A DNA stretch of 64,000 nucleotides from Deroplatys truncata (Eukaryota > Arthropoda > Insecta > Mantodea > Mantidae): positions 78,299,573 to 78,363,572 of the forward strand of contig CM060986.1 of the NCBI GenBank assembly GCA_030765065.1. The letters are read 5' to 3'. Positions within the stretch are counted from its first letter, which is position 1; every line of letters begins with the position of its first letter. A model generated the notes under the pieces. The model searched no databases. It had not been told where the DNA came from and saw nothing but the letters and a program-made list of their open reading frames with translations. The translations under genes and the position numbers were made by a program. Positions 11,075 to 64,000 of this stretch are shown in pieces.

Positions 11075-11076
11075 TA

Positions 11077-11755
11077 TAAGGAGGCTACATTAGGCCACAG
11101 CGACAGTCAGATTTTTAAAAAGCAAATCGCTATGTAGTGGCTTTGAAATTCCATGCTCTTTACATGAACACAAAGAAATAATAGTGACTTACCAATTGAG
11201 AAAATCATACGACTTTGAAAACTCATGCAAATAATAATGAATATCTCGGAAATGGTTATCGCCACAAGAAATTTTGTTTGATATAAATTGTGTGCCTTAA
11301 CGATATATACATTTTACTGTAGTAAATTTTTGTCTATCTCATACTGTTTACCAATTACACAAAAGTCATTCAGAATGAAGAGCAGTTAAATAGGTTATTC
11401 ACAGAAAAATAAAATGTTCATTTTCATTTACTTACCTGACGCCTATAGTATTTTAATCAGAATCGTTAGAGCACATTTTAAAAAATAACGAAACATTTTT
11501 TATGTAAAGAGTAGTTTGGGATGGGGGGATTTTCTTGAAAATCTTCGTGTCACATCCTTAATACCAAGTTTCGTATTTAGCCGATCTTTCATTTTTGAGA
11601 TATGTTGTTCACAGAGAGACACAGACAGACACACATTTTTCTAAAAATAATTTTTTTGGTTTAATTCAGGGAGCCTTGGTGGAATCCCGATATCGAATTT
11701 TTGTGTTGGATGCAATAACTTTCTCCTTACTATATATGTAGTAGAGAGAGAGATT
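11077..11755 (-). repeat. Family A copy, minus strand, partial
   Basis: Reading the plus strand, the reverse complement of family A is recognisable from GTCAGATTTTTAAAAAGCAA through GAATATCTCGGAAATGGTTA, AATCGTTAGAGCACATTTTA, a short CA-rich tract near 11610-11630, and GATATCGAATTTTTGTGTTG. It ends at the family 5' border near 11740 (TATGTAGTAGAGAGAGAGA). The 3' border is missing where the mariner abuts. Confidence 0.75.
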
Positions 11756-12292: not shown

Positions 12293-13207
12293 ACTTTCTC
12301 TACTATGTATAGTAAGTAGGGGAAGTATTGTATTCCACCCAAAAATTCGATACCGAGATTTCACTGGAAATATATGTTTTCAGACCCCCTGAATCCAAAA
12401 AAAGCATTTATGGAAACATGTCCGTGTGTGTGTCTGTGTGTCTGTCTGTCTGTCTGTGTGTCTGTCTGTGAACAGCATAATTCAGAAACGAGCAGTCGGA
12501 TAAACACCAAATTTGGTATTTAGGTTCAGTATCTTCCAGAAATGCGACACGAAGGTTTTCAAGAAAATCCTCCACCCCAGATTACCCTTTACATGGAACA
12601 TTTTTCGAAAATTTTAATTTTCTCAAAAATGGCTCTAACAATTTTGATTAAAATATGTATGTTTAAGATATTTTCATGACAAATAAAATGTATATCTTGA
12701 ATTTTCTGGGAATGTCTCCAAAAGTATTCTTCATTGTGAACGACTTTTGCATAAATGGTAAACTATAAGATATAGACAAACTTTTACTACACAAAAAATG
12801 TATAGCGCCTTAAAATACACAATTTATGTCATATACATTTTTTTGTTGAGTGTACCATTTTCGAGATATTGCTTGTTATTCCCTTGAATTTTTCAATACT
12901 TATTTTCTCAAATGGGAATTCGTTATTCATTTTTTGTCTTGGATATGCAAAGAGTATTAATCTGTGGCAAAGGGAATGGTGTTGCACCTAGCAACCAGCT
13001 ATTAAGAGATATGTATGTGCTTAAAGGCTACTGTATTTCTATATTGCCCTTGTAAATATATATTCCCCTTACATCTACAAGAAAATTAGCAATAAGATAG
13101 ACTCTGCAGATGTTTATCTCGATTAACATGAAGTAGATGGAGAATAAGCGTTTGTAAAAATAGTTTGTACAATAGTAGAGAAAGTTATGTGAGTGTAACA
13201 CATCAGA
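12293..13207 (+). repeat. Family A, complete copy (putative non-autonomous Helentron/HINE)
   Basis: This is the clearest full copy, 915 bp. It starts ACTTTCTCTAC right after TTTTTT and ends GTAACACATCAGA before TTTTTTT. Near the 3' end, TAGAGAAAGT is the inverted complement of the 5' terminus but lies about 25-30 bp inside the end, so the inverted repeats are asymmetric. A small hairpin (ATGTG...CACAT) sits at the 3' end. A GT/GTCT microsatellite occupies 12423-12470. There is no coding capacity; the ORFs seen are chance frames. T-run target, asymmetric repeats, 3' hairpin and GTCT-type satellite are known features of HINE/DINE-1 elements mobilised by Helentrons. That class assignment is inference. 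Confidence 0.75.
12421..12470 (+). repeat. GT/GTCT microsatellite inside family A
   Basis: An uninterrupted run of GT and GTCT units, at the position where every family A copy has a GT-rich tract of variable length. Confidence 0.9.
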
Positions 13208-13320
13208 TTTTTTTCAGAATTTTATCCGACTTCTATATTCAGAATCACAGCTATCACTAGATTTAGCCGCTGTAAAATGAGAATACTCGTGAAAAATATG
13301 TTTGCTTGTATTATGGATCC

Positions 13321-13840
13321 TCTACCGAGTGAGATGGCTCCACGGTAACGAGTGAGGCTCGCATTCGGAAGGTCCCGGGTTCGGTTCCCAGTGGCCGGCC
13401 ACTCTGACCATGGGTTTTTCGTGGTTTTCCCCGGTTGACATAAGCTAGTATTGGAGGGTGTATTCCTCTCCCCCTCCATTTCCTCTCATTCCATTTCCCT
13501 TTCATAATTCAGGTTGCCTCCGGGAGTGTAGTTTGGTCGGTGTCGGGTAGATGGCTCAGAGGCTTGCGATTAGGAAGTTCTTGTCAGCCCTGCTAGAGAG
13601 AAGCCTGTCGAGCCTCCACTACTGGGTCGTGTTTCCCCGGTCTCACTAGAGGGACGTCCCCGAGCGACCCTCTGTGGCCGGGTGGTCAAGCCTGGAACAG
13701 TTATGGAATTCTGCGCATCTCTGTTAACTTTGCTGGCCTCTCTTTGCAGCCCATATATCTCCTGCGGTTTCCCTCACATCCGTTCCTCCCGGGGGTGCAC
13801 GCACAAAATACCCAATGGGGTCGAAGAGCTAGGTGTTCCC
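13321..13840 (+). repeat. tRNA-derived SINE family S1
   Basis: The head begins TACCGAGTGAGATGGCTCC (A-box-like). It contains GGTTCGGTTCC at about 13379-13389 (B box), then a GC-rich body with GGTTTTTCGTGGTTTTCCCC and a 3' part with CTCTGTGGCCGGGTGGTCAA and TTCCTCCCGGGGGTGCACGC. Other copies lie at 25037, 37608, 51541 and 58440 (minus), with related ones at 20428 and 26310. The A/B-box head indicates pol III transcription and a tRNA origin. ORFs across it are not genes. Confidence 0.8.
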
Positions 13841-21115: not shown

Positions 21116-21685
21116 ACACATACACACGCTGTTATGTTTAGTGATAAGACAAAGAGTATTACATAAAAAACATAGATCTTTAAAACACATAGTTTATTTT
21201 CAATTGTGGCATCAGCCATTTCCAAGGTATCGGTGATTATTGGTTTTAAAGTGTTGGCACTTTTTCAATTCTAAAGTGTTGTGACTATTCAGTTGTTTCT
21301 CGCAATGTCATGTAATGAACAGGCAAAGAAGGAAGGAAATAAGGTTGAACTATTTCTTGAGTATAGGCAAGGGACGTCAAAGATAACAAATCATTCCTTC
21401 CCTCGTACTGTCTTTTTGCGTTTGCAGACAGCACTCGGACCGGTTTTTACCCGCCTATCAATCACCTTTGTACAATGCTGTTTATATTCTTTGTAGTAAT
21501 AATGGTTTGAGTGTAGATAACTTGACGCCAAATGCTTAAAAATTCCTATGCCTGGTAATGAAATTTTGCTTTAAAGGTTTATCTCGATTAACATGAACTT
21601 TCGAAACAATAGTTTGCAGAAGCTATATAAAATAAACAATAGTAGGCATAGAAATTCATGTGAATGTAATACACAAGATTATTTT
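21116..21685 (+). repeat. Family A, 3' part
   Basis: It is recognisable from CATAGATCTTTAAAACACAT through GGCATCAGCCATTTCCAAGG, CAGTTGTTTCTCGCAATGTC and TTTATCTCGATTAACATGAA to the 3' border GTAATACACAAGA. It is immediately followed by the 5' border of the next copy. No 5' half is present. Confidence 0.65.
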
Positions 21686-21808
21686 ACTTTTTTCTCTACT
21701 AGATATAGTAAGAGGGGGAAGTATTGTATTCCATCAAAAAGTGCCATTGAAATTTCACCGAATCTATATGTTTTGAGGCCCGCTGAACCACCAAAAAAAA
21801 GCATTTTT

Positions 21809-21937
21809 ACTTTCTCTACCACGTATATAGTAGGCAGATAAGATATTGTATTCCACCCAAAAATTATACATCCATATTTCACCGAGAATACGTGTTTTCA
21901 GGCCCACTGAATCCAAATAAAGATGTTATGGAAACAT

Positions 21938-21992
<55 letters not shown>

Positions 21993-22710
21993 TGTGGGCA
22001 GCATAACTCAAAAACGAAAAGTGGAATAAGTACCAAACTTGGTATTTAAGTTTAGGTATATTTCAAGGATACAACACGAATATTTTAAAAAACAAATACC
22101 CCACGCCCAATTTCCTTTACATGGAACATTTTTCGAAAACGTTGATGTTCTAAAAGATGGCTCTAACGATTTTGATTAAAAATACCATATATTAAAGACA
22201 TTTACATGACAAATAAAAAGTATATATTGAATTTTCTGGGAATAACTTTTGAAGTCCTCTTCATTCCAAAAGAACTTTTTATAATCTTGTATAACCGGTA
22301 AATGTTAAGTAATAAACGAAAACGTACTGCATAAAAAATACAGATGTCCTTAAAACACACCATTTATTTTAAATAAGTTTTTATGGCATAAACCATTTCT
22401 GAGATATCCCTTAAAATGGTTTGAATTGCTCATTTCTTGGTCATTCTTTCAAATCCTTTCAACATTCAGTTGTTTCTAGCGATTGCGTGCATACGGTATG
22501 GAATTTTAAGGCCAGCTTATAGCGTCCAGTTCTTAAGCTATCCTGTTCTTTTCATATTTATAACGAAATGGGTAATGTAGCTACTTCTGCATAGGTTTAT
22601 TTGAATTAAAGCGCAGTAGATAGCAAAATAAGTTTTATTAATAATAGCTTGTATATCTACCAATAAATATAGAGAGGGTAGGGAAAGTCGTGTGAATGTA
22701 TCACATTAGA
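21809..22710 (+). repeat. Nested family A copy, nearly full length
   Basis: It starts ACTTTCTCTACC directly after a five-T run and ends TCACATTAGA. The interior follows the family order: TTCCACCCAAAAATTAT, the GT microsatellite, AACAGCATAACTCAAAAACG, GGCTCTAACGATTTTGATTA, and CATTTCTGAGATATCCC. It is about 900 bp, in the same orientation as its host copy. Confidence 0.78.
21941..21990 (+). repeat. (TG)25 microsatellite
   Basis: A perfect 50-bp TG run, the family A microsatellite in the nested copy. Confidence 0.97.
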
Positions 22711-22735
22711 GTTTTAGACAAAGTTTGTGTAGATG

Positions 22736-22801
22736 TGGGGGGTGGGGTGTGGCGGGGTGTGTGCGTGCGCGCGTGCGTGTGTGTGTGTGTGTGTGTGTGT
22801 G
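22736..22801 (+). repeat. G-rich to GT microsatellite
   Basis: GGGGTGGGGTGTGGCGGGGT grades into GTGCGTGCGCGC and then pure GT. It occupies the microsatellite position of the host family A copy. Confidence 0.9.
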
Positions 22802-23488
22802 AACAGCATAACTCGAAAATAAAATGTCCGATAAATACGAAACTTGGTATTTAATTATCTTCTAAGCATGCGACACGAAGATTTTTCAAGAAAATCCCCC
22901 ATCCCAAACTACGTTTTTTGTGGAAAATATTTCAAAACTTTTGTTTTGTGAAAAATGGCTCCAATCATACACCGTATATTAAATATATTTACATTGCAAA
23001 TAAAATGTGTAACTTGAATTTACCGGACATAGCTTGCGAACTCCTCTTAATTCGGAAGGAAATTTACATAATCTTGCATAACTGATAAACTGATAAACAA
23101 AAATTAATGATCTCTTTAAAACACGCAATGGATTTCCAATAATCTTTTTTGTGGCATCAGCCATTTCCGAGATATCCGTTATTAATAATTCGAATTGTTT
23201 AATGTTCAATATTTAATCATTCCTTTAAAGTCCTGTATATTTTCAGTTGTTTCTCTGGATATCATGGGTGTAGTACGAATTTAATTTTAAGCCAACGTAT
23301 TAGCATTCACTTCTATAAAACATGTCACTATCTCTATTCCCTTTGTATCTAAAAGGAAATGCTAATGCAGCTATTTCCGGATAAGTTTATCTCATTTAAA
23401 ATTAAGTAGACAGGAAAATAAATTTTCGTAAGAATAATTCTATACCCACCTTTAAGGGATAGAGGGTAGAGAAAGTCATCTGAATGTC

Positions 23489-24178
23489 GACGGTTGTAAA
23501 CATTTCAGTTAAATTTTGGCTCAAAATTCTCCCTCATAGATTGTGAGATATAGAGTTCATGTTCATCACCTCCCTGCCTGTAAATATGTAGAACTATGTG
23601 ATGGTGAAGTACATGCAAAAAACGGAAAAGTAGAGGAAAAAACTTTCCTTATAATTCAAAGACACCGGAAGGAGTTAGGAAAAGGCAGACTGCATTAAGG
23701 AAGTAGGAGTTTTGGTGCTTTGCAACTAAAAGTTTAGCTCCTATATTATTTCCACACGGGGTGACACAACATTATTATTATAAATTCCGTCAGAGGGTCT
23801 AGGCCTCCCCACAACTCTTTCCCTCATAAACTGCCATCTTTTATTATTACTGCTACTGTGGAAAGTTTCATTGTGCTGGGCTGGAGAGGCAGATACTCAG
23901 GGTTGCCCCGCAAGGATTCCCCTCTAATAACTCTTCGCCAAGGTTCCTTTGTCTTCACTGATTCGAGTTCCAAAAGCCGGTCTAGTAATATATTCACACT
24001 GCGATTACGTAAAGTAGATATTTAAATTAAATTTTCTCGCATTAAACCAAGTTTTAAATATTCTCTCTGTAAGCAAAATTGATTATAAGGATGCAGTCAG
24101 TAGTGACCGCTGAAGAACGTCCACTTTAGGCTATGCATCCGTGAAATTTTGTGAAAAGGATAATAAGAAAAGTAATTA
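23489..24178. other. No recognised feature
   Basis: No gene or named repeat recognised. A short ATT-rich run lies near 23772. Confidence 0.4.
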
Positions 24179-24914
24179 TTTTCTCTACCAGATACATAGT
24201 AGGTAGACAAGGTATTGCATTCTACCCAAAAATTCAATATCGAGATTTCACGGGAGATACATGTTTTGAGGACCCCCGAATTAAAAAAAATCATGTTTAT
24301 ATAAAGGTCTCTGTGTGTGTCTGCCTGTGAACAGCATAACTCAAAAACGAACTGTCGAATAAATACCAAACTTGGTATTTAGGTTCAGTACCTTCCAAAC
24401 ATGCGACACGAAGATTTTCAAGAAAAATGTATATCTTGAATTTTCTGGGAATAGCCTGGAAGGAATTTTGTGTAACCTTGTATAACTGGTAAACGTTAAA
24501 CGGTAGACTAAAACGTACTACACAAAAAATGTAAATCTCTTTAAAACACAGAATTTATTTCAAACAACTTCTTTCTTCGCGGCATGGGCGATTTCCGAGA
24601 TATCCGTTATTAATGGCTCCGTTTGTTCAATACTCAGTCACTCTTTTTTTTAAGTCCCATGGTTTTCAGCTGTTTCTCGCGATTGCATGGAAAGAGCATA
24701 GCATTTTAAGGCCAACATATAACATCCACTTTTAAACATTCGACCATCACTGTTCCCTTTGTATTCTAACAAGATGTGTAATGTAATACTTTTGCAAAGG
24801 TTTATCCGGATTAAGATGAAGTACATAGAAAAATAAATGTTTATAACAACAATTTGTATACGTATTAATAAACAATAGAGGGTAGGGAAAGTTATGTGAA
24901 TGTAACACATAAGA
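24179..24914 (+). repeat. Family A copy with internal deletion
   Basis: The 5' border (TTCTCTACCAGATACATAG), a short GT tract near 24310, the core GAACAGCATAACTCAAAAAC and the 3' border GTAACACATAAGA are all present. About 180 bp between the AAGATTTTCAAGAAAA block and GTATATCTTGAATTTTCTGG is missing. Confidence 0.78.
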
Positions 24915-27759: not shown

Positions 27760-28026
27760 TTAATGGCGTTTGGGTTTACCCTGAGGATGAGGATGGGAAG
27801 AGGATTGGGAGGGGTGTGGCATCACATGGGATTCAAGGAAGTTCCGGATCAGGATGTATCCTTCTTGCAGGTGGTCGTAGTTGGCGCTCAGCGCCTTGAA
27901 GTTCTCGGTGATGGAGTTGCTGGTGCTGGTATGCAGTTCTCGAATCCCTTCGACTGAGGCGCCGAGGGCACCCAGTCTCTGGACCGGTCGTCGCTGCCGT
28001 CGGTGTAGGGCTCGACAAGGTGACAC
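27760..28026 (-). pseudogene. Probable frameshifted C-terminus of the LINE ORF1
   Basis: The frame overlapping the end of the 502-codon ORF reads GIRELHTSTSNSITENFKAL and NYDHLQEGYILIRNFLESHV, an alpha-helical, protein-like composition. The 502-codon frame here is Pro/Ser/Arg-rich. This suggests the ancestral ORF1 ended at 27760 and that one indel moved the reading frame. Confidence 0.5.
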
Positions 28027-29396
28027 TCGATTCTTCCCAGCTTGCGCTGGGCCGACACGAGAACCCCATCTTCGTCCTGAAGCTTGTGGATCTTGTTGGT
28101 GAGAGCAGTGATCACCCTGGCCGAAGTTCGCTGCTTGGCCTCCACGGCCGAAAGGCGCGTGAAGGTTGCACGGCTCAGCTCAGCCAGTTGTGAGGTGAGG
28201 TCCTGTATGCCTGCCTGTATGGCTGACAGGAGGCGTTGAAGTCCATGGTGCTCTTCGTCGGTGATGCCGCTGGTCAGGTGCTGAGCCCTCCCTGAGGGCT
28301 GCGTCAGGTGGCCGTCTGAAGTTGCTGGCGTCGTTGACGGTGCTGGTGTCGTTGAAGTTGCTGGTGTTGTCGTCGGTCTGGTAGGTTGTCTGCTCCGGGG
28401 ATACAGGGGGCAATGTGCCTGCCCTGTAAAATGTGTGTTCCCGGAGCAGGTGGCGCAGAAGCGTCGGCGTCGTCTGAGGTCGTGAAGGGTGCAGGCTGAC
28501 GTAAGGGAGCCTGACCCACAGTAGTGGCATCTGGGCGCAGCGTTGCGAGCTTCTGCTGTGTGCCCGAAGGCACAACAGCGTCGGCAGGGCACCGGACGAT
28601 CACCTCTAGTGGCCTCTGCGCGCAGGGTCCTCCCAAGTAGAGGCAGACCTGTGGCTTTGGCCGCTTCCACGTCCGATGCGGCTCCCAGATGCAGGCGGAC
28701 CAGCAATGTTGGGCCTCTTGCAGAAGAGATGCGTGAGGCCCGTATTGCCGAGCGCCAGTGTTGTCGTGCCGCTGTCAGCACATAATGAGGTGGCAGGTCT
28801 CTGGGCACCCCACAGATAACGACGCTGTGGCGTCCATCTATCCGGGAGTGCGCCGGCGTCGTTTGTCGTCCCAGGTCAGTTGCCGGGCGGGCAGCTGGTG
28901 GCGTCGGTGGGTTCTCCGTCGTTGAAGAGGCAGAGGTAGCGGTGATTGGCCGCTGGGCTGCTTTCTTTGGAGAGGCCCGGTCAGTAGCTGGCGGCGTCTG
29001 CGTTGTGGCGGTGACCATCTGCGGCCTAGAAGGCCGAGTGGTCGGGTCAGCTAATGGTGGCGTCTGTGTGCTCGACTCCCGAGGAGCCGAGGCCGCGGCG
29101 GTCTGCGTTGCAGTACAGAACATCTTCGGCCTAGAGGGCCGAGAGGTCTGAGTCGCAGAGGATGTCAGTTTCAGCTTTGGAGGCCGAGGCGATCCTGATT
29201 GGGCCGGCTCGGGAAAGAGGGCGGAGCCTGCTGCGGCCGGCTGCTCTCTCTGCTGTGGCGGCGAAGGTTCGGCGGTTGCCGGCGGGTCTGGGATGATCCC
29301 CGTGGCCCATGGTTGTGTCCAGTTGTTCATGCCGGCGTTGCGGTGCTTCCACCGTGCCGTTCTGAACAGAGGGTTCCGTATCGGCGGTGCTGACAT
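27888..29396 (-). CDS. LINE ORF1 (gag-like, zinc knuckle) protein, 502 codons
   Basis: The longest ORF of the window. Residues 30-185 are Pro/Ser/Thr-rich, with repeated ATQT and RPSRP motifs. Residues 188-265 (GRHSVVICGVPRDLPPHYVL onward) resemble the RRM-like/PRE_C2HC region of jockey-type gags. Residues 271-330 hold three zinc-knuckle-like modules. The first is CRRCCAFGHTAEARN (last Cys reads Asn), the second CHYCGSGSLTSAC (His reads Leu) and the third CATCSGNTHFTGQAHC (intact). Residues 380-445 look coiled-coil. After about residue 455 the sequence loses this character, while an overlapping frame (27760-28026) continues a plausible coiled coil, so a frameshift is likely. Gag proteins of this type bind element RNA. 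It is not a host gene. Confidence 0.7.
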   Translation of the reverse strand: MSAPPIRNPLFRTARWKHRNAGMNNWTQPWATGIIPDPPATAEPSPPQQREQPAAAGSALFPEPAQSGSPRPPKLKLTSSATQTSRPSRPKMFCTATQTAAASAPRESSTQTPPLADPTTRPSRPQMVTATTQTPPATDRASPKKAAQRPITATSASSTTENPPTPPAARPATDLGRQTTPAHSRIDGRHSVVICGVPRDLPPHYVLTAARQHWRSAIRASRISSARGPTLLVRLHLGAASDVEAAKATGLPLLGRTLRAEATRGDRPVPCRRCCAFGHTAEARNAAPRCHYCGSGSLTSACTLHDLRRRRRFCATCSGNTHFTGQAHCPLYPRSRQPTRPTTTPATSTTPAPSTTPATSDGHLTQPSGRAQHLTSGITDEEHHGLQRLLSAIQAGIQDLTSQLAELSRATFTRLSAVEAKQRTSARVITALTNKIHKLQDEDGVLVSAQRKLGRIECHLVEPYTDGSDDRSRDWVPSAPQSKGFENCIPAPATPSPRTSRR

Positions 29397-32520: not shown

Positions 32521-32700
32521 CTCTCTTTAAAATTACAACCAGATGCAGACACTTTCTATGCAGACTGTATGTGTTACGCACTGTGAGTAAGCAAAGGTAT
32601 CATATCGCTTTCGTTGATTAAGCTAAAGATAAACCATTCCTAGGCTCGGCAGCTGGGGTAGCAATCAAGGTCACGATTCCAGAAGCTTTGCGCGAGTAAT
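32521..32700. other. No recognised feature
   Basis: Short unannotated interval between the transposon and the next family A copy. Confidence 0.4.
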
Positions 32701-33143
32701 ACCAGTTATACATGATTATATAAAATTCCTTCCAATGAAGTAGACTTCACGGGCTATTTTCAAAAAATTCACGATATGCATTTTATTTGAATACAGATAT
32801 CTTTAATATATGCTGTTTTAATCAAAATCGTTAGTGCCATTTTTTAAAAAATCAAACATTTTGAAAACCCTTACATGTAAAGGATGGTTTGTGGTGGGGA
32901 TGCCTTCAGAAGGAAGGTACTGGACCTAAATATCAAGTTTGGTGTTTATTCCACTTTTCGCTTTTGAGTTATGCTGTTCTCACACACACACACACACACA
33001 TACACACATGGGCCCTTTCTAAAAATCTTTTTTTGTTTTTAGTTACCTCAAAACATGTATTTCTGGTGAAATCTCGGAATCGAATTTTTGGGTGGAATGC
33101 AATATCTTCTCTACCTACTACGTGCGTGGTAGAGTAAGTAAAA
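32701..33143 (-). repeat. Family A copy, 5' half
   Basis: The reverse complement of the family from the block AATCAAAATCGTTAGTGCCA through TACCAAGTTTGG-like sequence, TGAGTTATGCTGTTC, a (CA)n run at 32981-33008 and GAATCGAATTTTTGGGTGGA. It reaches the 5' border GTAGAGTAAGTAAAAA. Confidence 0.78.
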
Positions 33144-33818: not shown

Positions 33819-35055
33819 CGAGGGACACTATTTATATTTTGAGCCTTGGTAACCCTGAATGTTGTAGGTGCCATCTGACGTTTCCTATGGAAAGTTTGAC
33901 ATTTTGTACCATAATCCACTTCAAACATTTTGTCAATAGAGCGTCATTTTTTTTGTTTAGACTAACTTGAAAATTGTGTGTCAACACAAACATGGAATTA
34001 ACTCGTGAAAATGTTCGTGTAATGATTTATTACGACTTTCGACGTGGATTATCAAGGCAAGAGTGCATCGATCAACTAACGTCCGCGTTTGGCGACAAAG
34101 CTCCATCCTTTGCCATTGTGAAACGCTGGAATAACGAATTTAATCGTGGCCACCGTTCGTTCAATGATGAAGTTCGTGAAGGTCGTCCAAAATCAGTTGT
34201 TGTGCCAAAAAACATTGATGCTTTGCAAAAACTAATAATGTAAGATCGTCATGCGACATATTGTGAGATTGAGGCAACCCTAAGCATCAGTTCCACTAGC
34301 ATATATAAAATATTGCATGATTATTTAGCCGTGAAAAAGGTTTGCTCTCGCTGAGGCAATCTCAAAAAGATGCTCATGTCGATTGATGTACAAAAATTCT
34401 CAAGAAATACAATGGCGGTGCCTCAAAAGACGTATATAAGATTGTAACAGGTGACGAATCATGGATCTATGCGCATGAGCCGGAACGTAAACAGCAGTCG
34501 ACTGTATGGGTGTTTCAAGATGAAGCAAATCCAACAAAAGTTGTTCGCACTCGAAGCACTTCGAAGCAAATGGTCACCTGCTTTTTCAGCAAAACTGGCC
34601 AATGCCGAATGGTATACAACCATTTGTTTGCCGGAAGTCTTCGGTGAAGTAAGGAAAACCAACAAGAACCGTAGGATCGTTCTTCATCAAGACAATGCGA
34701 GCGCACACACATCTCGTCTAACAACAGAGTATTTGAAGGCTCAAAAAATCGAATTGATGGGTCATCCGCCATACAGTCCTGATTTGGTACCCATTACTTC
34801 TTTTTGTTCCCGAACATCAAGAATAAATTGCGTGGGCAACGATTTTCGTCGGCAGAAGAAGCCGTTGATGCCTTCAAAAACAATGTTTAAGAGGTGTCTT
34901 AAGAAGACTGGAATAAATGCTTTGAAAAATGGTTCAAACGAATGCAAAAGTGTATTGATCATAAAGGGGAGTATTTTGAAAAACAATAAAGCAGTTTTCA
35001 ATCAGAAATTACTTTGTTTTAATTATTAGGCTCAAAATATAAATAGTGTCCCTCG
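33819..35055 (+). mobile_element. Mariner copy 3, perfect inverted repeats
   Basis: The 1237-bp element is flanked by TA (33817-33818 and 35056-35057). Its terminal inverted repeats are 27 bp and identical by my reading (33819-33845 and 35029-35055), starting CGAGGGACACTATTTATATT. This is the best-preserved transposon in the window, though its gene is broken. Confidence 0.92.
33992..34989 (+). pseudogene. Mariner transposase pseudogene (copy 3)
   Basis: It opens with MELTRENVRVMIYYDFRRGL (about 84 codons open to a stop at 34241-34243). The helix-turn-helix part is intact (KAPSFAIVKRWNNEF and EGRPKSVV). After stops it continues with GDESWIYAYEPERKQQS (first catalytic Asp near 34454), then LHQDNASAHTSRL (second Asp near 34690). 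The third block SPDLVP near 34780 is followed by an indel exactly where PNDFFLF-type sequence should supply the third Asp. It ends with KGEYFEKQ. At least three frame disruptions. Confidence 0.9.
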
Positions 35056-38075: not shown

Positions 38076-38447
38076 AAGGTGTCTACCTCCGTTTATATCT
38101 TTAAAGGGAGCTATGCACAAAAAAATTAAAAAACGTAACTGCCTAAGGAACTCGAGACGGCCATGGAGTCTGAATGGTCATAATCATTACACAGATAGTC
38201 GTGACTGCACAACAATTTTCTTGTAAGTAACAAGTTACTTAATTATGTTTACAAAGCGATATGTCAGATAAATGGGTTTAAGCTATCCAGTAGAGTAGAA
38301 ACTATTCAAATGGGATGAATAGTTTTATAGACAACTTCGAACAAAAATTGCTCTTCATAATATATATATGTGTGTGTGTACATATAGTGTATATATAATT
38401 TATATACTGATATTTGTACTTCACGAGGTACTTCCTGTGTGTACTTC
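38076..38447. other. No recognised feature
   Basis: Unannotated; short TATATA/GTGTGT run near 38365-38395. Confidence 0.4.
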
Positions 38448-39341
38448 CTCTTGTACAAACTATTTTTACAAACTCTTATTCTGCATCTATTTCATATTAA
38501 TCGAGATAAACATTTGCATAAACGATCTTTTGACATGCAAAGAGAATTACATTTTACACATAGTGACCAGTTCTAAAAATATTTAACCATCGCTTAAGGC
38601 CTACTATGTTCCCCTTGTTTTGTATTTGCAAGGGCAATATAAGCACAGACACATCTCATAATAGCTGGTTGCTAGGTGCAACACCATTCCCTTTGCCACA
38701 GATTAATACTCTTTGCATATCCAAGACATAAAAAGGACTAACGAATTCCTATTTGAGAAAATAAGTATTGAAAATTTTAAGGGAATAGCAAGCAATATCT
38801 CGAAAATGGTTCACTCAACAACAAAAATGTATATGACATAAATTGTGTATTTTAACGCGATCTATATTTTTTGTGCAGTAAAATTTTGTTTATCTCCTAT
38901 GGTTTATCAGTTATGCAAAAGTCGTTCACAATGAAGAATACTTTAGGAGACATTCCCAGAAAATTCAAGATATATATTTTATGTGTCATAAAAATATCTT
39001 AAACATATGATATTTTAATCAAAATCGTTAGAGCCATTTTGAGAAAATTACAATTTTCGAAAAATGTTCCATGTAAAGGGTAATCTGGGGTAGGGGGATT
39101 TTCTTGAAAACCTTCGTGTCGCAACTCTGGAAGATACTGAATCTAAATACCAAGTTTGGTGTTTATCCGACTGTTCGTTTCTGAGTTATGCTGTTCACAG
39201 ACACACACACGGATATGCTTCCAAAAATGCTTTTTTTGGATTCAGGGGGTCTCAAAACATATATTTCCAGTGAAATCTCGGTATCGAATTTTTGGGTGGA
39301 ATATAATACTTCCCCTACTTACTATACGTAGTAGAGAAAGT
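38448..39341 (-). repeat. Family A copy, nearly complete
   Basis: The reverse complement of the family: ATTAATCGAGATAAACATTT, GGTGCAACACCATTCCCTTT, CAAGCAATATCTCGAAAATG, AAATCGTTAGAGCCATTTTG, CTGGAAGATACTGAATC, a short CA run and the 5' border GTAGTAGAGAAAGT before AAAAA. The outermost 3' border is missing. It is close in sequence to the 12293 copy. Confidence 0.85.
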
Positions 39342-39431
39342 AAAAAGTTACTCGCTCTGTGTTGACTTTGAAATCCCATTCTCTCTGCATGACCATGGAA
39401 CAAAATGAATAGCGACTTACTACTTCAAAAA

Positions 39432-40185
39432 ATTTGATATGCTGTATTCACATGACTTTCTCTACTCACTCTTCTACAATCGATTCTTACAAAAGCTTAA
39501 AGCTTATTCCCTATCTGCTTTTTATTAATAAAGATAAACATTCATTATAAGCGTACGCAATTCGTTATGGATATAAGGACTAGGCTAAAGCGTCATTAAA
39601 TTTTTAAAAACCGTCTCGCCGTTTGAAGGCTCTGAAATTCCATACTCTGTGTATGGCCATGAGAAAAAAAACGAGTAGCGACTTACAGTTTGAAAAATGC
39701 TTAAGTTTTTTGAAAATTTTAACTATTAACAAAGAATATCTCGGAAATGGTTAACGCACAAACATTTTATTTGACACAAATGATGTGCTTTAACGGGATA
39801 TACGTTTTTGGTACAGTACGATTTGTCCCTCTCTTAGAGTTTATCAGTTATACAACAGTCATTCAGAATTAAAAGATCTTCACAGGCTATTCCCAGAAAA
39901 TTCAAGATGTACATTTTATTTCTCATTCAATGAAATTTTATTCAAAATTAAATGAGCCACTTTTGAGAAAATCGAAAAGAACGAAAGATGTTCTATGTAA
40001 AACGTATTTTGGTGGGGAACTTTCTCGAAAATCTTTGTGTCGCATCCTTGGAAGATGCTGAACTTAAATACCAAGTTTGGTATTTAACTAAATTTTTGTT
40101 TTTCTGTTTAGTTATGCAGTTCTCTGTGTATCTCTCTCTCTCAAACACAACAATATTTCCTATGTTTACCATAGTCAAGTAAGTA
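39432..40185 (-). repeat. Family A copy, diverged
   Basis: It starts at the family 3' border (TTTGATATGCTGTATTCACA after AAAAAA). It runs through CATGACTTTCTCTACTCACT, GAATATCTCGGAAATGGTTA and CCTTGGAAGATGCTGAACTT to a short CT/CA-rich tract near 40130. The 5' end is mostly lost. Confidence 0.75.
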
Positions 40186-42150: not shown

Positions 42151-43038
42151 TTAATATAATTTAGTGACATAGTCTTTTTCCAATGCTACATTAATCAATC
42201 TGTAGACCAAACTTCTAAAAACAGCATGTTGGTTTGAAGTAGGGTTATAGAAATTATTTTTAATATAGTTATCCACATGTGTAGGTTTTCTGTAAATGCC
42301 AAACTTTATATTATTTTCTTTTCTTTTTACCAGTATATCCAAGAAGGTTAATGAATTATTAGTTTCTGTTTCCATAGTAAATTTTATATGGGCGTCTTGT
42401 TCATTCAAAATATCCAGTGATAAATTTATGCAATCTTGAGGAATAATAGCAAAAATGTCATCTACATATCTATGCCAAATCTTTAAAATATGTGGATATA
42501 AAGTAGTAACAGTTTTTTCCAAGGAGCTCATATAAAGGTCTGCCAGGAGAGGAAATAATGGATTACCCATAGTCAAACCATGTGTCTGCTTGTAGAAATT
42601 CTTACTGAAAGAAAAATAATTTTGGTTGATACAGCAAGTTGTAAGTGTGATCATTTCTTGATTGTAATTCTCTTGTAGTTTAAGTGATTCTAACCAAATT
42701 CTTAACAGATCTGGAATGTTATCTGTAGGTACATTTGCGAATAACGATGTAACATCAAAGGATACTAAAATAATCTTCTGTATTAATTGTATAATTCTGA
42801 ATATTATTAATTAATTCTGCAGAGTTCTTAATACGAGTAATGATAGGAATTTTTCCAAAGATGTGAATTCTTTTGTCAGCCATTTAGCAAAACCATAGCT
42901 GGGCTAACCTATATTATTAATGATAGGTCGCATACTGTTATCTGTTTTATGAGTTTTTGGTAAGCAATATATTTTAGATAAAGTTGGATTGCTGCCTTTA
43001 AGCTGTCGCTTTTTATCAGTCGATAGCATAGTTGAACT
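42151..43038 (-). pseudogene. Penelope reverse transcriptase core
   Basis: The motifs appear in order on the minus strand. First LPKTHKTDNSMRPIINNI near 42940, then FDVTSLFANVP (motif A with catalytic Asp) near 42740. These sit in frames broken by indels. In the open frame 42654-42151 follow QTHGLTMGNPLFPLLADLYM (motif B), RYVDDIF (motif C) and LTFLDILV (motif D/E region). Both Asp residues of YVDD are kept. The core domain is recognisable but the ORF as a whole is not continuous. Confidence 0.85.
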
Positions 43039-43797
43039 TTATATCACTTTGTTGACCTGTTTTATGCATGAATTTAAAGCATCTTTACTAATTGGTACAT
43101 AATCATCATTTTTTAAAAATTCTTTAATTCTATTATAGTAATCATCATCATTTAAAATTACAATTTGATTGCCTTTATCTGTTTTTAGATATACAACATG
43201 TTTCTCATTAAGTTTCTTAATAGTTTTTTTGTTGAAGTTATTATTCATAGTGAAATCCATATTTGTAATAACTTCTGTACTTTGTAGTTTTAAACTGCTG
43301 GCTAAAGCTGAGGTTAAACCATGAGTGGCTATTTCTGTATCTGCTATGTAATTTTGAATATTGTTGAAGAAAGAAATACAAGTCTTAAATCCTTTTTCTA
43401 ATAGTTGCAATTCTTCCAAAGCTGAAGGTTGATCAGACTGATTGACAACTGTTTTAGGTTTGCTTACTTTTTTGAACTTATTACAATTCCAACATGGCAG
43501 CTGTGTTTCCTTTAAGTAGTGAAGTTTTTTCCTTAAGGTATAAGTTTTATTTTGCATATAATACTGCAATTGAGAATAACATCTGTCTTCAAAGTTTTTC
43601 CACATCTGGTGTCCCAAAGCTTTAGTTAACAATAAATGCAATTCATAAAGTTGTAATTGGATACGATTTACGTTACTATAGTGTTTCACAATTTCGGTTT
43701 TCAAAATGCTTCTTTCTGCTATTTTTTGGTGTCGGCTATTACCGGTATATTTGATATATTTCTTAACAAAGCAAGCATCACCATGTATATATGGCAA
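43039..43797 (-). pseudogene. Penelope N-terminal region of the ORF
   Basis: A 252-codon open frame opens MPYIHGDACFVKKYI. It has a basic, aromatic N-terminal part, a CWNC motif near residue 97, and the segment VVYLKTDKGNQIVILNDDDY near 200-220. That last segment is the block directly preceding the RT in Penelope ORFs. A frameshift or stop separates it from the RT core. Confidence 0.75.
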
Positions 43798-44615: not shown

Positions 44616-45162
44616 TTAATTTGTAAGTTGCCTAAGAAAAAGGAGTAACACTGCAAACAGGATTGTCAAACTCGAACGAGTGCTGCAGGACATCATGGTC
44701 TCCTGTATCCACTCAACATGCAGACCGACGGGCACCCAGGACATAACTGATACGTTTTTACCTTTCGTTTTGAAATTTATCAGCTGACTGCTGACGCCTA
44801 CCTGGGTTTTATTGCATAGCAGAGGTCCACCAGAATCTCCAAAGGTGTATCTTCGGTTGTCTTTGGCCATTGAACACATCATGGTGCTAATCATATGATT
44901 GGCCAGCACGGGTGCAAAGAAGTAGGTGCAAGGAATCGCATAAAGAACTTGAAGCTTGTGTAGTTTACTGTTGGGTTCCTCTAAGTTCTCGCTGATGAAG
45001 CCGTACCCCATGACGACGCATCCCTGGTAGTACGCTGAAACGGTTGACAGGACGGTGTATGCTTTTGTGGAGAACCTGCTGCTTGAGCGAACCAATCCGA
45101 TGTCGTTATACGCGAAATCATTAACCACATCGTATCTTGGATGTAAAATGCCTATACCTGGC
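44616..45162 (-). CDS. S1A serine protease, exon 2 (Asp and Ser of the triad)
   Basis: The exon begins after a polypyrimidine stretch and CCAG at 45163-45164. It starts in phase 2, completing a Lys codon with exon 1. Residues 113-293 of the joined protein follow. They include YNDIGLV with the catalytic Asp132, C160, C190 and C208 (168-182 type disulfide), GDSGGPLLC with Ser222 and C228, and VPVGLHVEWIQ before the C-terminus. Position 191 is Thr218 instead of Cys, and the partner Cys220 is absent. Position 189 is Arg216, not Asp/Ser/Gly, so trypsin specificity is not expected. Residues 273-289 are strongly hydrophobic and could be a GPI signal or membrane anchor. Confidence 0.9.
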
Positions 45163-45384
45163 CTGGATGAGAAACAAATCGTAAGGTCTTGCTGAAGCAA
45201 ATCAAACTAAACATTATTCTGAGTATCAAGCATAAAATTATGAGGAACATTGCAGTATATATTTGTAGGATTAACATACATAGATCCATGAAGGAAATAT
45301 GACCTAACAAGGGAATCACATGTCTAACGAACATAATCACAGCAGCCAAGAGGGCAGTTATTTATTTAGATGCTCATTTACTTA

Positions 45385-49646: not shown

Positions 49647-50531
49647 ATGTAATGTGTTACATTCACATTACTTTTCCGCACATTTTTCAGCAATATATTC
49701 TTACAAAATCTTATTCTTCTATTTACTTCATGCTAATCGAGTTAAGCATTTGCGGAAATTGTCTTATTGTGCATTTCCTTGCAGGTGAAAGCGGATTAGG
49801 GGAATTCAGTGGGTTTAAACGATAATCAAATCTTTTAAGAATGGATTGCTATGTAATGACTTTGAAATTCCGTTCTCTTTGCATAGCCGAGAGAAAAAAT
49901 CGAATAACGATTTTCCTCTTGAGAAAATTATAAGCATTTGAAAGTTCAAGCCAATAACATAAAATACTCGGAAATGGCTAATGCAGCAAAAAATGTTATT
50001 TGACATAAATTGTGTGCTTCAATGAAATCCACGCTGTAGTAAGATTTTCAGCACCTCTCGCCGTTTACCATAATGCAAAAGCCATTGAGAATGAACAGGA
50101 TTCCAGAGGCTATTCCAGTGCAATTCAAGATATACATTTCCTTTGTTATGAAAATATGTTAAACACATGGTATATTAATCAAAATCGTTAGAGCCAGTTA
50201 TGAGAAAATAAAGGGTTGTTTGGAGGTAGGAGGTTTCGTTAAAAATATCCATGTCGCAGCTTAGAAGGATGATAAACTTAAATACTAAGTTTGGTATTTA
50301 AACAAGTTTTCGTTTTTGAGTTATGATGTTCACAAACACACACACACACATACACACAGAGACGCACAAACACACACACACATATACATAGACACACGGA
50401 CAGTTATCTAAACACTCTGTTTATAGGTTCAAGGACCTCAAAATATGTATTTCTGCTTAAATATCCTTATCAAATTTTTCGGTGGAATGCAACGCTGCCT
50501 ATACTCACTAAACGTAAGTAGTAGAGAAAAT
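49647..50531 (-). repeat. Family A copy, nearly complete
   Basis: It spans from the 3' border (AATGTGTTACATTCACATTA after AAAAATG) through TCATGCTAATCGAGTTAAGC, ATACTCGGAAATGGCTAATG and AATCGTTAGAGCCAGTTATG. It then has a long CA-rich microsatellite at 50336-50398 and the 5' border GTAGTAGAGAAAAT before AAAAA. Confidence 0.82.
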
Positions 50532-50859: not shown

Positions 50860-50997
50860 CTGCTCGTCATTTAGAGCCAGGCTGTTATGGAAATATATTT
50901 ACTCCATTCTTCAGCATCTAGACCCCAATAATGATCGCTTCTGAGGTAAATAAACCCGGGTAGCGTGAGCTACTATATAATCGTGTAAAAAATCCTT

Positions 50998-51535
50998 CTG
51001 ATATGTTGCATTCACATGACTCTCCTATTTTTGGTACAAAAGCTTTTGCTTTTATTTCTTATTAATCGAGATAAACCTTATATAACTTTCGTTTTAGACA
51101 TAAGAACACAGTAGACTAAAGCCATAGTCAGATTTTTAAAAATCTTATGTAATACATTCATATGACATTCTCCACCCTCTATCATTTATTAGTGGGTATA
51201 CAAACTATTCTTACCAAGCCTATTTTTCTGTCTAGTACCTTTTAATCCAAATAAACCTTTGCAGAAATAGCTACCTTACACATTTCGTTATAGATACAAA
51301 GGGAACAGCGATAGTCAAATGTCTAAGAACTAAACGTTATATGCTGGGCTTAAAATTCCATACTGTTTCCACGCAATCGCGAGAAACAAGTGAATGTTGA
51401 TAGGACTTAATGACCAAGAAATGAACAATTCGAACCTTTAATAGCGGATATCTCAGAAATGGCTTATGCCACAAAAAAACTTAAATGAAATAAATGTGTG
51501 TTTAATCTTCGTGTCGCATCTTTGGAAGATACTGA
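50998..51535 (-). repeat. Two family A fragments, one inserted beside the other
   Basis: The first fragment (50998-51141) starts at the 3' border TTCTGATATGTTGCATTCAC. It breaks off at CAGATTTTTAAAAA, where a second copy begins with its 3' border TCTTATGTAATACATTCATA at 51146. That copy runs through CACGCAATCGCGAGAAACAA and GATATCTCAGAAATGGCTTA to CTTTGGAAGATACTGAA at 51537, where SINE S1 sequence takes over. Confidence 0.7.
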
Positions 51536-51540
51536 ACTAA

Positions 51541-51705
51541 AGCTTGGAATCGTTAGGGCCTCTACGCGTCTCTGTGGGCCGGCTTACGTGCTGCCTATAG
51601 CCAACTACAATTCCTTCATCTCATCCATCCTTCCTGGGGGTGATAGGCACAAAAGATCCGCGTTGGGTTGAGGTGCGCGGTGCCCCCCGTTCCCTGAACA
51701 TTCAT
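51541..51705 (+). repeat. SINE S1, 3' part
   Basis: GCTTGGAATCGTTAGGGCCT, CTACAATTCCTTCATCTCAT and GCACAAAAGATCCGCGTTGG match the 3' halves of the S1 copies at 25037 and 37608. The tRNA-like head is absent. Confidence 0.75.
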
Positions 51706-53579: not shown

Positions 53580-54837
53580 ACTTTCTCCGACAATTAACTT
53601 TAGTAAGTAGAGACAGTTCCATCCAAAAAATCGATACCGAGATTTCAGTAGAAATATACGTTTATGTCCATGAATAAAACTCGCATTTTTAGAAAAAGGC
53701 CATTGTGACGGGAATGGTGTGTATGTGTGTTTGCTTGTTTTCGTGTCTCTATGAACAACATAACTCCAAAACGAAAACTTTATTAAATACCAAACTTGAT
53801 ATTTACGTTCAGTGTCTTCCAAGAATACCATACGAAGATTTTCAAGAAAATCCTCCAGCCCTAACTACCCCTTAAATGAAAATGTTTTGTTATTTTATTG
53901 TTTTCTTAAAAATGGCCTAACGATTTTTTAAACTGCCATAAGTTTAAGATATTCGCATGACAAATAAAATGTATATCTTTAATTTTCTGGGAATACCTGA
54001 GAAATCGTCTTCATTCTGAATGAAATTTTTATAACATCGAAACCGTAAGAGATAGACAAAAACCCTCTACACAAAAATGTTTATCTCGTTAAAACACACA
54101 CAAGGGAAAATTTTTATTCCACGTTTGAATTTTAAAACGTTTTATAATTTTTCAACTGCAAAATCGCTATTCATTTTTGTCTTCTAGTCCTTTTTTCTCC
54201 GGATCTCTCTAAAACTGCTTGTACACGGTCAAATTTTTGTCAAATTCAATACTTTACAAGAATTATCAAGAGTTGTCATAACTTCACAACTTTTCTTGTC
54301 AAATTGCTTCAAATACTTTTGAAGTCTTTGAAAGTCTTGAAATCAAATAAGGACATACTCTAAACGGTCAAAGATTTGACAATAATTTGATGACGTGGCC
54401 AATGAAATGCGAGTATTTATAGTGCGTCACGAAATCTGCAATATGGCTGAAAGCGAAAAAAGTGTGTTTTGAAGGGTTTCAGTTTGGTAAAGAGACAACT
54501 TGTAAATTCGCAATTATGACACTGTCAAGTCTTGCCAGGTCTTACTCAATCTTGTCACATATTGAAAAATATTTGACAATTAAAGTTTGATCGTGTACAA
54601 GCGGCTTAAGAGAAGGGAATTTCAAAGCCATCACATAGCATACCGTTCTTAAAACATTTGACTATTGCTAAAGCTTACAATATTCCCATAATCCTCTTGT
54701 ATCTTACAAGGAAATATGTAATAAAGCCATTTCTGCAAATATTTATCTCGATTGGCATGAATTAGAAGAATAAGCTTTGTTAAAAGTAGGTTTTTGAAGA
54801 ATGGGTAGAGAAGCTCATGAGAATGTAACGTATCAGA
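53580..54837 (+). repeat. Family A copy split by a MITE
   Basis: It starts ACTTTCTCCGACAATTAAC after a T-run and ends GTAACGTATCAGA before CTTTTT. The interior order is kept (ATCGATACCGAGATTTCAGT, short GT tract, AACATAACTCCAAAACG, AATGTATATCTTTAATTTTC). The MITE at 54213-54606 interrupts it. Confidence 0.78.
54213..54606 (+). mobile_element. PIF/Harbinger-like MITE with TAA target duplication
   Basis: A 394-bp element with inverted ends: left AACTGCTTGTACACGGTCAA, right (reverse complement) AGCCGCTTGTACACGATCAA. TAA occurs immediately outside both ends (54210-54212 and 54607-54609), which fits the TWA target of PIF/Harbinger elements. Inside are a TATTTATA box near 54414 and an ATG starting MAESEKSVF then a stop, as if the transposase promoter and start were kept and the rest deleted. 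Superfamily assignment rests on the target duplication, not on coding sequence. Confidence 0.65.
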
Positions 54838-55160: not shown

Positions 55161-55883
55161 AAAAATCTGATGTGTTACACCCGCATGACTTTCTCTACTC
55201 TTGTAAAAACTATTTTTACAAACGCTTATTCTCCATATACTTCTTGTTAATCGAGATGTTAATCTTATTGCTAATTTTCTTGTAGATGCAAGGGGAATAT
55301 GGTAGGTTTTAAGCGATAGTCAAACCTTTTAAGCGCTGGTTGCTATGTGGAGCATTCCATTCTATTTGCATGTTCAGGGCATAAAAAATGAATAAATAAT
55401 TTGAGAAAAAGTATAAGTATTGGAATATTTGAGGGGATAACAAGCAATATCTCGAAAATAGTTCACTCAAAAAATGTATATGACATAAACTGTGTATTTT
55501 AACGCGATCTACATTTTTTGTGTAGTAAAATTTTGTCTATCTCTTATGGTTTACCAGTTACGTAAAAGTCGTTCACAATGAAAAATACTTTTGGAGACAT
55601 TCCCAGAAAATTCGAGATATACATTTCATTTGTCATGAAAATATCTTAAACATATGATATTTTAATCAAAATCGTTAGAGCCATTTTTGTGAAAATCAAA
55701 ATTTTCGAAAAATGTTCCATGTAAAGGGTAATCTGGGGTGGGGAGATTTTCTTGAAAACCTTTGTGTTGCATCTCTAGAAGATAATGAACCTAAATACCA
55801 AGTTTGGTGTTTATCCGAGTGTTCGTTTCTGAGTTATGCTGTTCACAAACACACACACGGACATGTTTCTAAAAATGCTTTTT

Positions 55884-56835
55884 ACTTTCTCTACTACGTA
55901 TAGTAAGTAGGGGAAGTATTGTATTCCACCCAAAAATTCGATACGAGATTTCACCGCAAATACACGTTTTGAGACCCCCTGAATCCAAAAAAATAGCATT
56001 TTTGGAAACATGTCCGTGTGTGTGTCTGTGTGTCTGTCTGTGTGTCTGTGTGTGTGTCTGTCTGTGTGTGTATGTGTGTGTGTGTGTGTGTGTCTGTCTG
56101 TGAACAGCATAACTCAGAAACGAACAGTCGGATAAACACCAAACTTGGTATTTAGGTTCAGTATCTTCCAAGGATGCGACACGAAGGTTTTCAAGAAAAT
56201 CCCCCACATCAGATTACCCTTTACATGGAACATTTTTCGAACATTTTAATTTTCTCAAAAATGGCTCTAACGATTTTGATTAAAATATCATATGTTTAAG
56301 ATATTTTTATGACAAATAAAATGTATATCTTGAATTTCCTGGGAATGTCTCCAAAAGCATTCCTCATTGTGAACATTTGCATAACTGGTAAACCATAAGA
56401 GATAGACAAAATTTTACTACACAAAAAATGTAGATCGTGTTAAAATAAACAATTTATGTTATATATATTTTTTTGAGTGAACCATTTTCGAGATATTGCT
56501 TGTTATTCCCTTAAATTTATCAATACTTATTTTCTCAAATGGGAATTCGTTATTCATTTTTTTGTCTTGGATATGCAAAGAGTATTAATCTGTGGCAAAG
56601 GGAATGGTGCTGCACCTAGCAACCAGCTATTAAGAGATATGTATATGCTTAAAGGCTACTGTATTTCTATATTGCCCTTGTAAATATATATGCCCCTTAC
56701 ATCTACAAGAAAATTAGCAATAAGATAGACTCTGCAAATGTTTATCTCGATTAACATGAAGTAGATGGAAAATAAGCGTTTGTAAAAATAGTTTGTACAA
56801 GAGCAGAGAAAGTCATGTGAGCGTAACACATCAGA
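55884..56835 (+). repeat. Family A, complete copy nested in another copy
   Basis: 952 bp from ACTTTCTCTACTACG to GTAACACATCAGA, opposite in orientation to its host. Five T precede it and seven T follow, where the unoccupied host has seven T in all. This is consistent with a T-run target and a duplication of about 5 bp, or T residues as part of the element. The sequence is very similar to the 12293 and 63006 copies, implying recent spread. Confidence 0.9.
56015..56100 (+). repeat. GT/GTCT microsatellite of the nested family A copy
   Basis: About 86 bp of GTGT and GTCTGTCT units. It produces long Thr/His-rich frames on the minus strand that are not genes. Confidence 0.95.
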
Positions 56836-57086
56836 TTTTTTTGGATTCAGGGGGTCTCAAAACATGTATTTCCGGTGAAATATCGGTATCGAATTTTTGG
56901 GTGGAATACAATACTTCCCCTACTTACTATACGTAGTAGAGAAGGTAATAAAAACCTGTGAGTTGAATATAAAAGACAGTCGCTTGTCGCTTGTTTATCA
57001 GTACCCCACAAGGACAACAGCTGGACTCACAAACTAAATAAAACAAAACGAGCATATGTGTATATGAATACATTATTTATATTTAC

Positions 57087-63885: not shown

Positions 63886-63901
63886 TTTTTTTCTAATTTT
63901 T

Positions 63902-64000
63902 ACTTTTTCCACCACGTACATGGCAAGTAGAGAATATACTGCATTCCATCCAAATATTTGATACCGAGATTTCACTGAAAATACATGTTTTGAAGCCCCT
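63902..64000 (+). repeat. Family A, 5' end, running off the window
   Basis: ACTTTTTCCACCACGTACAT after a T-run, then ATTCCATCCAAATATTTGAT and ACCGAGATTTCACTGAAAAT. It follows the previous copy by only 16 bp in the same orientation. Confidence 0.8.

Follow-up and report, generated by a model that had tools for sequence, protein, structure and literature searches.

Architecture of family A

The window analysed here is a stretch of 64,000 nucleotides from Deroplatys truncata, and at its positions 12293-13207 lies the element that we use as the reference copy of a repeat family designated family A. The features of this copy are:

12293-13207 (+), reference family-A element (young group), 915 bp, ACTTTCTCTAC...GTAACACATCAGA between T6 and T7
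12293-12306 (+), 5' subterminal inverted repeat arm ACTTTCTCTACTAT at the exact 5' end, complementary at 14/14 positions to 13172-13185
12316-12326 (+), inverted repeat GTAGGGGAAGT, which pairs with the 5' arm to form a 5' hairpin
about 12419-12469 (+), GT/GTCT microsatellite of variable length
13172-13185 (+), 3' subterminal inverted repeat arm ATAGTAGAGAAAGT
13187-13203 (+), 3' palindrome ATGTG N7 CACAT (ATGTG at 13187, CACAT at 13199), followed by CAGA and a T-run

The element is non-coding, reads ACTTTC...CATCAGA and is inserted into T-tracts. Its exact limits were confirmed by scoring the best 40 of 2,854 candidates in the genome (39 besides the window copy), where 29 of the 39 other copies matched query positions 1-915 end to end; the remaining copies stopped inside the query, and identity was 91-94%. 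Canonical Helitrons begin with TC, end with CTRR and insert between A and T, and a canonical Helitron was rejected for family A because the ends ACTTTC...CATCAGA and the insertion into T-tracts do not fit these features.

A previous sequence-only reading of this DNA had described T-runs at both ends and a GT/GTCT satellite of varying length, and both were observed, the satellite tract being of unequal length among copies. It had also placed an inverted copy of the 5' terminus 25-30 bp inside the 3' end. The inverted repeat is present and perfect over 14 bp; its arms start directly at the 5' end and stop 22 nt short of the 3' end (T-runs excluded), slightly nearer to the end than had been claimed. 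The ATGTG/CACAT hairpin was upheld as a palindrome but not as a fold, as the 3' end gave a folding energy no better than shuffled sequences (z -0.7, 49 of 200 shuffles equally good). The 5' hairpin, folded from the common family sequence, which is one letter off the window copy, did better than shuffles (z -2.05, 4/200 as good). Just downstream of the reference copy, window positions 13300-13700 appear by eye to hold a tRNA-derived SINE-like sequence.

Copies in the window

Searches of the window with up to one mismatch gave 27 matches to ACTTTCTCTAC, with 1.23 expected, and searches with up to two mismatches gave 12 matches to GTAACACATCAGA, with 1.95 expected; in neither case did any of 100 shuffles yield as many. 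Profiles built from 20 full-length copies identified 26 merged segments on both strands, some with more than one copy, which together cover 23.1% of the window (reversed control, 0% of the window and 0.03% of the sample described below). The view that family-A copies with common ends are numerous on both strands and take up a large share of the window is thus well founded. Besides the reference copy, the following were delimited:

11075-11750 (-), 5' part of a copy
21555-23487 (+), cluster of old-group copies, including 21809-22710
24178-24914 (+), old-group copy
32700-33139 (-), 5' part of a copy
38446-40124 (-), cluster in which a young copy (5' end at 39341) adjoins older pieces
49648-50531 (-), old-group full-length copy
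50997-51547 (-), 3' part of a copy
53581-54837 (+), 5' and 3' parts of one copy (53581-54183 and 54608-54837)
55166-56946 (-), outer copy split by the insertion at 55884-56835 (parts about 55166-55883 and 56836-56946)
55884-56835 (+), young copy in the T tract of the antiparallel copy 55166-56946; occupied site, with empty sites at L010:6398-6630 (T6) and L010:7474-7733 (T7)
61715-62531 (-), old-group full-length copy
63006-63885 (+), young full-length copy with a head-to-tail neighbour, another 5' end lying just downstream (63894-63999)

Four other coding remnants or open frames were observed in the window:

27888-29396 (-), open frame of 502 aa with zinc-knuckle-like cysteines by eye and no Pfam match, possibly a LINE ORF1
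34451-35029 (+), DDE_3 transposase fragment (E 1.1e-7), mariner-like by eye
42151-43797 (-), RVT_1 match below the cut-off (E 3e-4) with a second frame upstream, Penelope-like by eye
44616-45200 (-), trypsin-like serine protease fragment (E 6.3e-12), perhaps a host-gene exon or a retrocopy

Abundance and age in the genome

In the assembly of 4,289,915,091 bases, ACTTTCTCTAC occurs exactly 668,437 times, compared with 4,701 occurrences of the reversed pattern. The two ends of the family are about equally common, with 125,280 exact 33-nt 5' ends and 127,488 exact 33-nt 3' ends (two degenerate positions in the latter), and a control count of 0 for each. In a sample of 20 stretches of 10 kb (200 kb) from contigs C1-C13, with C14 and C15 outside the sample, family A makes up 14.0% of the bases (95% bootstrap interval over stretches, 8.7-20.0). 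Extended to everything except contig C16, this mean would correspond to some 500 Mb.

The age structure was derived from a curated set of 20 copies, consisting of 30 rows from the element caller minus 11 (false ends, composites and decayed copies) plus one (from L018), with a corrected start or end in two rows. Thirteen of these form a young group with K2P distances of 0.04-0.09 from the consensus, six form an old group at 0.27-0.33, and one further copy lies at 0.14. Agreement between the two groups is 92% over the first 11 nt, 86% over nt 35-60 and 84% over both the 3' arm and the last 22 nt, as against only 59-68% in the 3' half ahead of these two, a comparison that is biased towards conserved ends since the copies were picked by their ends. 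A tandem array with a unit of about 3.4 kb was observed near the start of C1 (C1:20-119 kb, L001-L008). It was rejected as a HINE satellite because family A is only a passenger inside the larger unit, the same copy being present in L001-L003.

An autonomous Helentron in the same genome

The sequence-only reading had assigned family A to the non-autonomous elements mobilised by Helentrons, and a Helentron of about 10 kb with matching termini was found in the same genome. Scoring the best 150 of 291 candidates gave 152 genomic matches to Helitron_like_N (PF14214), and among the matches listed at least 18 lie in open frames of 2,108-2,543 aa. The C-terminal 224 residues, which include the endonuclease, were used as a second query, for which the best 150 of 1,896 candidates were scored. 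Sixteen of the 18 long frames contain the whole query (1-224) uninterrupted, one is cut short by a stop within it and one is broken into two pieces. At least 36 copies are ≥97% identical over the full endonuclease query (one from residue 2), and 14 share the top score. Five near-alike endonuclease-fragment matches, each in two pieces and roughly 140-185 kb apart, were observed at C15:106.9-107.5 Mb, perhaps as a large tandem or segmental duplication.

The copy on C9 (L029+L030) is bounded by the T-runs before 627 and after 11038 and has an uninterrupted frame of 2,324 aa with family-A-type ends on either side. Its protein contains Helitron_like_N (E 1.1e-27) and PIF1 helicase (E 1.8e-28) domains, and in the same frame a C-terminal AP endonuclease that narrowly passes as Exo_endo_phos_2 (28.2 bits, cut-off 27.4); a whole scan of a 2,253-aa protein lacking the last residues gave no such match at E values up to 0.1. 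NCBIfam gave no match for the Helentron protein. Residues 30-175 of this protein (P0001, L029+L030:3129-10100) match Herpes_teg_N (PF04843, E 1.2e-8), which we take to be a protease-like domain, and a long K/E-rich repeat region may explain the unequal frame lengths of the copies. At Rep motif 2 (HUH), the C9 copy has VEFQMRGSPHEH, including the serine described as diagnostic of Helentrons (PMC4067079). An RPA gene occurs in mite Helentrons, and no RPA domain was identified in the one Helentron protein scanned. Two further copies, on C13 and at C1:248 Mb, were compared with the C9 copy over end pieces of about 3 kb and 0.8 kb each. Identity is 98-99.6% up to the same T-runs, and the flanks differ beyond them.

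Shared ends of family A and the Helentron

Comparison of the window copy with the C9 Helentron showed agreement at 33 of 34 nt at the 5' end and 32 of 33 nt at the 3' end. Three window copies match this Helentron at 83-93% over the outer and 84-89% over the inner 5' part. Over their last 94-221 nt the match falls to 62-69%, because the last 33 nt agree at 31-32 positions while the preceding 27 are unrelated; for the window copy, the last 60 nt agree at 38 positions (32 in the last 33 and 6 in the preceding 27). According to the rules given in PMC4067079, elements with at least 11 identical bp of subterminal inverted repeat belong to one family, and those with at least 80% identity over the last 60 bp belong to one subfamily. 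Both family A and the Helentron carry ACTTTCTCTAC and GTAGAGAAAGT, and with 38/60 at the 3' end the two would be classed by these rules as one family but different subfamilies.

With less than 80% agreement over the last 60 nt, family A does not necessarily derive directly from the sampled Helentron. Family A may instead have been moved mainly by a different Helentron, lost or unsampled, with the full family-A 3' region, the sampled one being a cousin; we take this seriously, while leaning slightly against it. Apart from the 38 shared positions, it is favored by the distance of the young family-A copies from their consensus (4-9%) relative to the 98-99.6% identity of the end pieces of the three Helentrons, so that the main family-A burst may predate these Helentrons. 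The composites with mixed ends described below argue in the other direction, as they suggest that both end types work together. An autonomous element ending in the full family-A 3' region was not found among eight further Helentron 3' flanks, in which the Helentron 3' end is intact in five, damaged in two and absent in one; four of the eight have a family-A 3' end beyond, from either a split host copy or a composite. Such a parent would refine the HINE explanation rather than exclude it, and the subfamily mismatch affects the choice of parent among Helentrons but leaves HINE membership untouched.

Target site

Occupied and empty sites were compared at the nested pair 55166-56946 and 55884-56835. 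The insertion is flanked by ATGC-T5 on the 5' side and T7-GGATT on the 3' side, and empty relatives have T6 or T7. The empty-site check proposed by the sequence-only reading came out positive. A second occupied site, L024:5904-6797, lies in transposase-like sequence (mariner-like by eye) with an empty relative in L021. The third, L019:6461-7271, lies in the 3' part of another copy; the TTATT on its 5' side is also present in an insert-free relative and is therefore probably host sequence.

Insertions into the same T tract of family-A copies are frequent: the genome contains 3,703 such junctions that match exactly on the 5' side and 2,402 on the 3' side (control 0 for each; the 5' and 3' patterns differ in stringency). 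The first 100 listed 5' junctions have T5 in 52 cases, T6 in 29, T4, T7, T8 and T10 in one each, and other strings in 15. By pairing these 100 5' entries with 73 3' entries from the same stretch of C1 (same strand, distance 600-1,100), 30 insertions with both sides were obtained. Twenty-one have 12 tract letters in all, 16 of them as T5 + T7 and four as T6 + T6; eight have 13 letters and one has 14. Since empty tracts have 6-7 Ts, about five Ts are added per insertion at this site, with the cut shifting within the tract. Head-to-tail junctions of family A amount to 9,887 exact occurrences (control 0), with T5 in 53 of the first 100 listed, as expected from insertion into the T-run left by an earlier copy or from insertion of concatemers.

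A target duplication of five Ts would be hidden by pure T-tracts. In four copies with an A at position -3 of the 5' flank (TTATT in three and ATATT in one), the string is repeated at the start of the 3' flank in none; such copies are few, and they argue against a five-T duplication. A duplication of non-T target letters had been named by the sequence-only reading as evidence against a HINE, and none was seen in these four copies, which are able to show one. We favor an element ending in CACATCAGA-TTTTT with a target of TTWTT^T; the five Ts could instead belong to the 5' end of the element, and it is less likely that they are duplicated.

End-swapped composites

The three near-identical Helentrons (C9, C13 and C1:248 Mb) are preceded by family A from position 1 to about 622 and a T-run, after which the 5' end of the Helentron itself follows. 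They finish at the Helentron 3' end, without the right part of family A beyond, and because this part is missing they appear to have moved as composites, from a family-A 5' end to a Helentron 3' end. On C6, a copy 90-92% identical to the three lies inside a family-A element that is split at the same T-run, the two parts meeting at consensus position 623. Judged by sequence, this arrangement looks like the source of the three composites; as the identity is only 90-92%, separate insertions at the same T-run are also possible. The reverse pairing is found in an older copy at C1:185 Mb, which begins with a Helentron 5' end and runs past the Helentron 3' end into family A (622-861), and again at L010:6631-7729 with a family-A copy inside. 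The pieces read of the copy at C10:47 Mb show an ordinary Helentron with a single end of each type.

These arrangements suggest that the ends of family A and of the Helentron are interchangeable, and such natural composites act as genetic tests of which ends cooperate. The simplest account of them is rolling-circle transposition in which a 5' end is paired with the 3' end of another family downstream after an occasional missed stop. Bypassed termination signals have been cited for Helitron arrays (PMC4067079). Recombination or deletion could lie behind some of the composites.

Proposed mechanism of family-A transposition

We consider it very probable (about 0.92) that family A represents a HINE: it would be a non-coding passenger that a Helentron of the same genome mobilises in trans with its Rep/helicase/endonuclease protein. 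The reading draws on the ends in common with a Helentron of intact frame, the insertion into T-tracts, the addition of about five Ts, the head-to-tail copies and the composites. The HINE/DINE-1-like identity put forward by the sequence-only reading is likewise borne out by the subterminal inverted repeats and the 3' palindrome; the weak folding of the 3' hairpin counts against it. By analogy with Helitrons and the HUH chemistry of their Rep proteins, Rep would nick at the 5' end, the PIF1-like helicase would peel off one strand, replication would halt at the 3' subterminal repeat and palindrome, and the strand would be joined into a T-tract, roughly TTWTT^T. If the 3' stop were missed, synthesis would continue to the next 3' end and produce composites. 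Family A has T-tracts of its own, namely the 3' T-run, an A7/T7 tract near position 105 and a T-run near position 620 of the consensus. With each copy bringing these along, the family would make its own targets, which would explain the nesting and the head-to-tail arrays.

A MITE, a cut-and-paste transposon that has lost internal sequence, keeps terminal inverted repeats and depends on a DDE transposase, would agree with the perfect 14-bp inverted repeat and with the mariner-like DDE fragment at 34451-35029. It is nevertheless very improbable, since the 3' arm lies 22 nt inside the element, so that symmetric repeats are not at both exact ends, non-T letters are duplicated in 0 of 4 testable copies, and the termini match those of a Rep/helicase element. 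In the searches made here, which were directed at other kinds of element, no DDE transposase with the family-A termini turned up. A SINE or other retroposon, with the T-runs as an oligo-T tail or an antisense poly-A, would account for the 3' T-run and the very high copy number and can practically be dismissed, given that 5' and 3' ends are about equally numerous with no sign of 5' truncation and that the ends are common to a rolling-circle element.

Distribution among chromosomes

Contig C16 (707,006,351 bases, 16.5% of the assembly) is the longest among the contigs with known size here. In Hymenopus the X is the largest chromosome and in Tenodera the two X are the largest (PMC12908712), and C16 is probably the X of Deroplatys. 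In 14 stretches of C16, the profiles assigned 55 of 21,000 bases to family A, a value that 53 of 20,000 resamples of the C1-C13 loci matched or fell below. Among the matches listed, none of the 36 Helentrons with at least 97% identity (chance 0.0015 by length) and none of the 18 long Helentron frames lie on C16, nor do any of the 39 scored family-A copies, which were selected for likeness to the window copy and are not a random sample. Total exclusion is argued against by three places on C16 that have endonuclease matches of greater age and in decay (59-74% identity). At least 16 of the Helitron_like_N matches listed, which represent other or older types, also lie there. The density of A/T tracts of at least five letters is similar on C16 (5.0 versus 6.1 per kb).

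From this small sample, the largest chromosome, presumably the X, seems nearly free of family A. We tentatively suggest, at somewhat less than even confidence, that family A takes up about one-seventh of the autosomes and is nearly absent from the X because its rolling-circle transposition is restricted to cells or stages in which the X is closed or absent, an example being the germ line of X0 males with its single condensed X. If true, the sparing of a whole chromosome would reveal in which cell type a Helentron transposes. Should the gap on C16 hold, it makes the timing of Helentron activity testable.

Comparison with known systems

Helitron bursts in D. truncata have already been published (PMC12908712), and this was the only paper found in our literature search on the species together with Helitrons; no paper joining Helentrons with mantises was found. 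The 'Helitrons' of that study come from the same genome as family A. Its available text does not separate Helentrons and HINEs from Helitrons, does not describe their ends, targets or distribution among chromosomes, and makes no mention of a family-A-type gap on one chromosome. The present results offer a likely mechanism and culprit for the burst, namely a single Helentron lineage, in which long open frames are numerous, and its passenger, family A, with more than 125,000 exactly preserved ends. With thousands of insertions into its own copies at one T-tract, the family allows target-site statistics of unusual resolution. Specialists would be drawn most to the spared chromosome, and also to the scale of the family and its end-swapped composites.

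As a HINE, family A is a new and very abundant family of a class that is itself known. HINE-Mo, HINE-Cq and DINE-1, described with their Helentrons in PMC4067079, resemble family A in architecture. Like family A, they are non-coding and have a 3' palindrome, a microsatellite and subterminal inverted repeats (11-15 bp), they insert into T-tracts without duplication and occur in clusters, and they far outnumber a partner with Rep, PIF1 helicase and AP endonuclease. The 3' palindrome of 5-10 bp that marks HINE membership is present in family A as ATGTG N7 CACAT. The 3' arm lies 22 nt from the end in family A, as compared with 38-60 nt in the mite HINE (PMC4067079). With 14% of the sampled C1-C13 stretches, family A exceeds the shares reported in the same source for Helitrons in Myotis (6%) and Heliconius (6.62%). 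Cg_HINE of the Pacific oyster, as described in PMC7492417, shares with family A a left side composed of the 5' subterminal inverted repeat, a complementary inverted repeat and a microsatellite, a right side with the 3' subterminal inverted repeat and a palindrome, and insertion into oligo-T without duplication. Cg_HINE has central satellite-like arrays in addition (PMC7492417), whereas the reference copy of family A has the microsatellite only.
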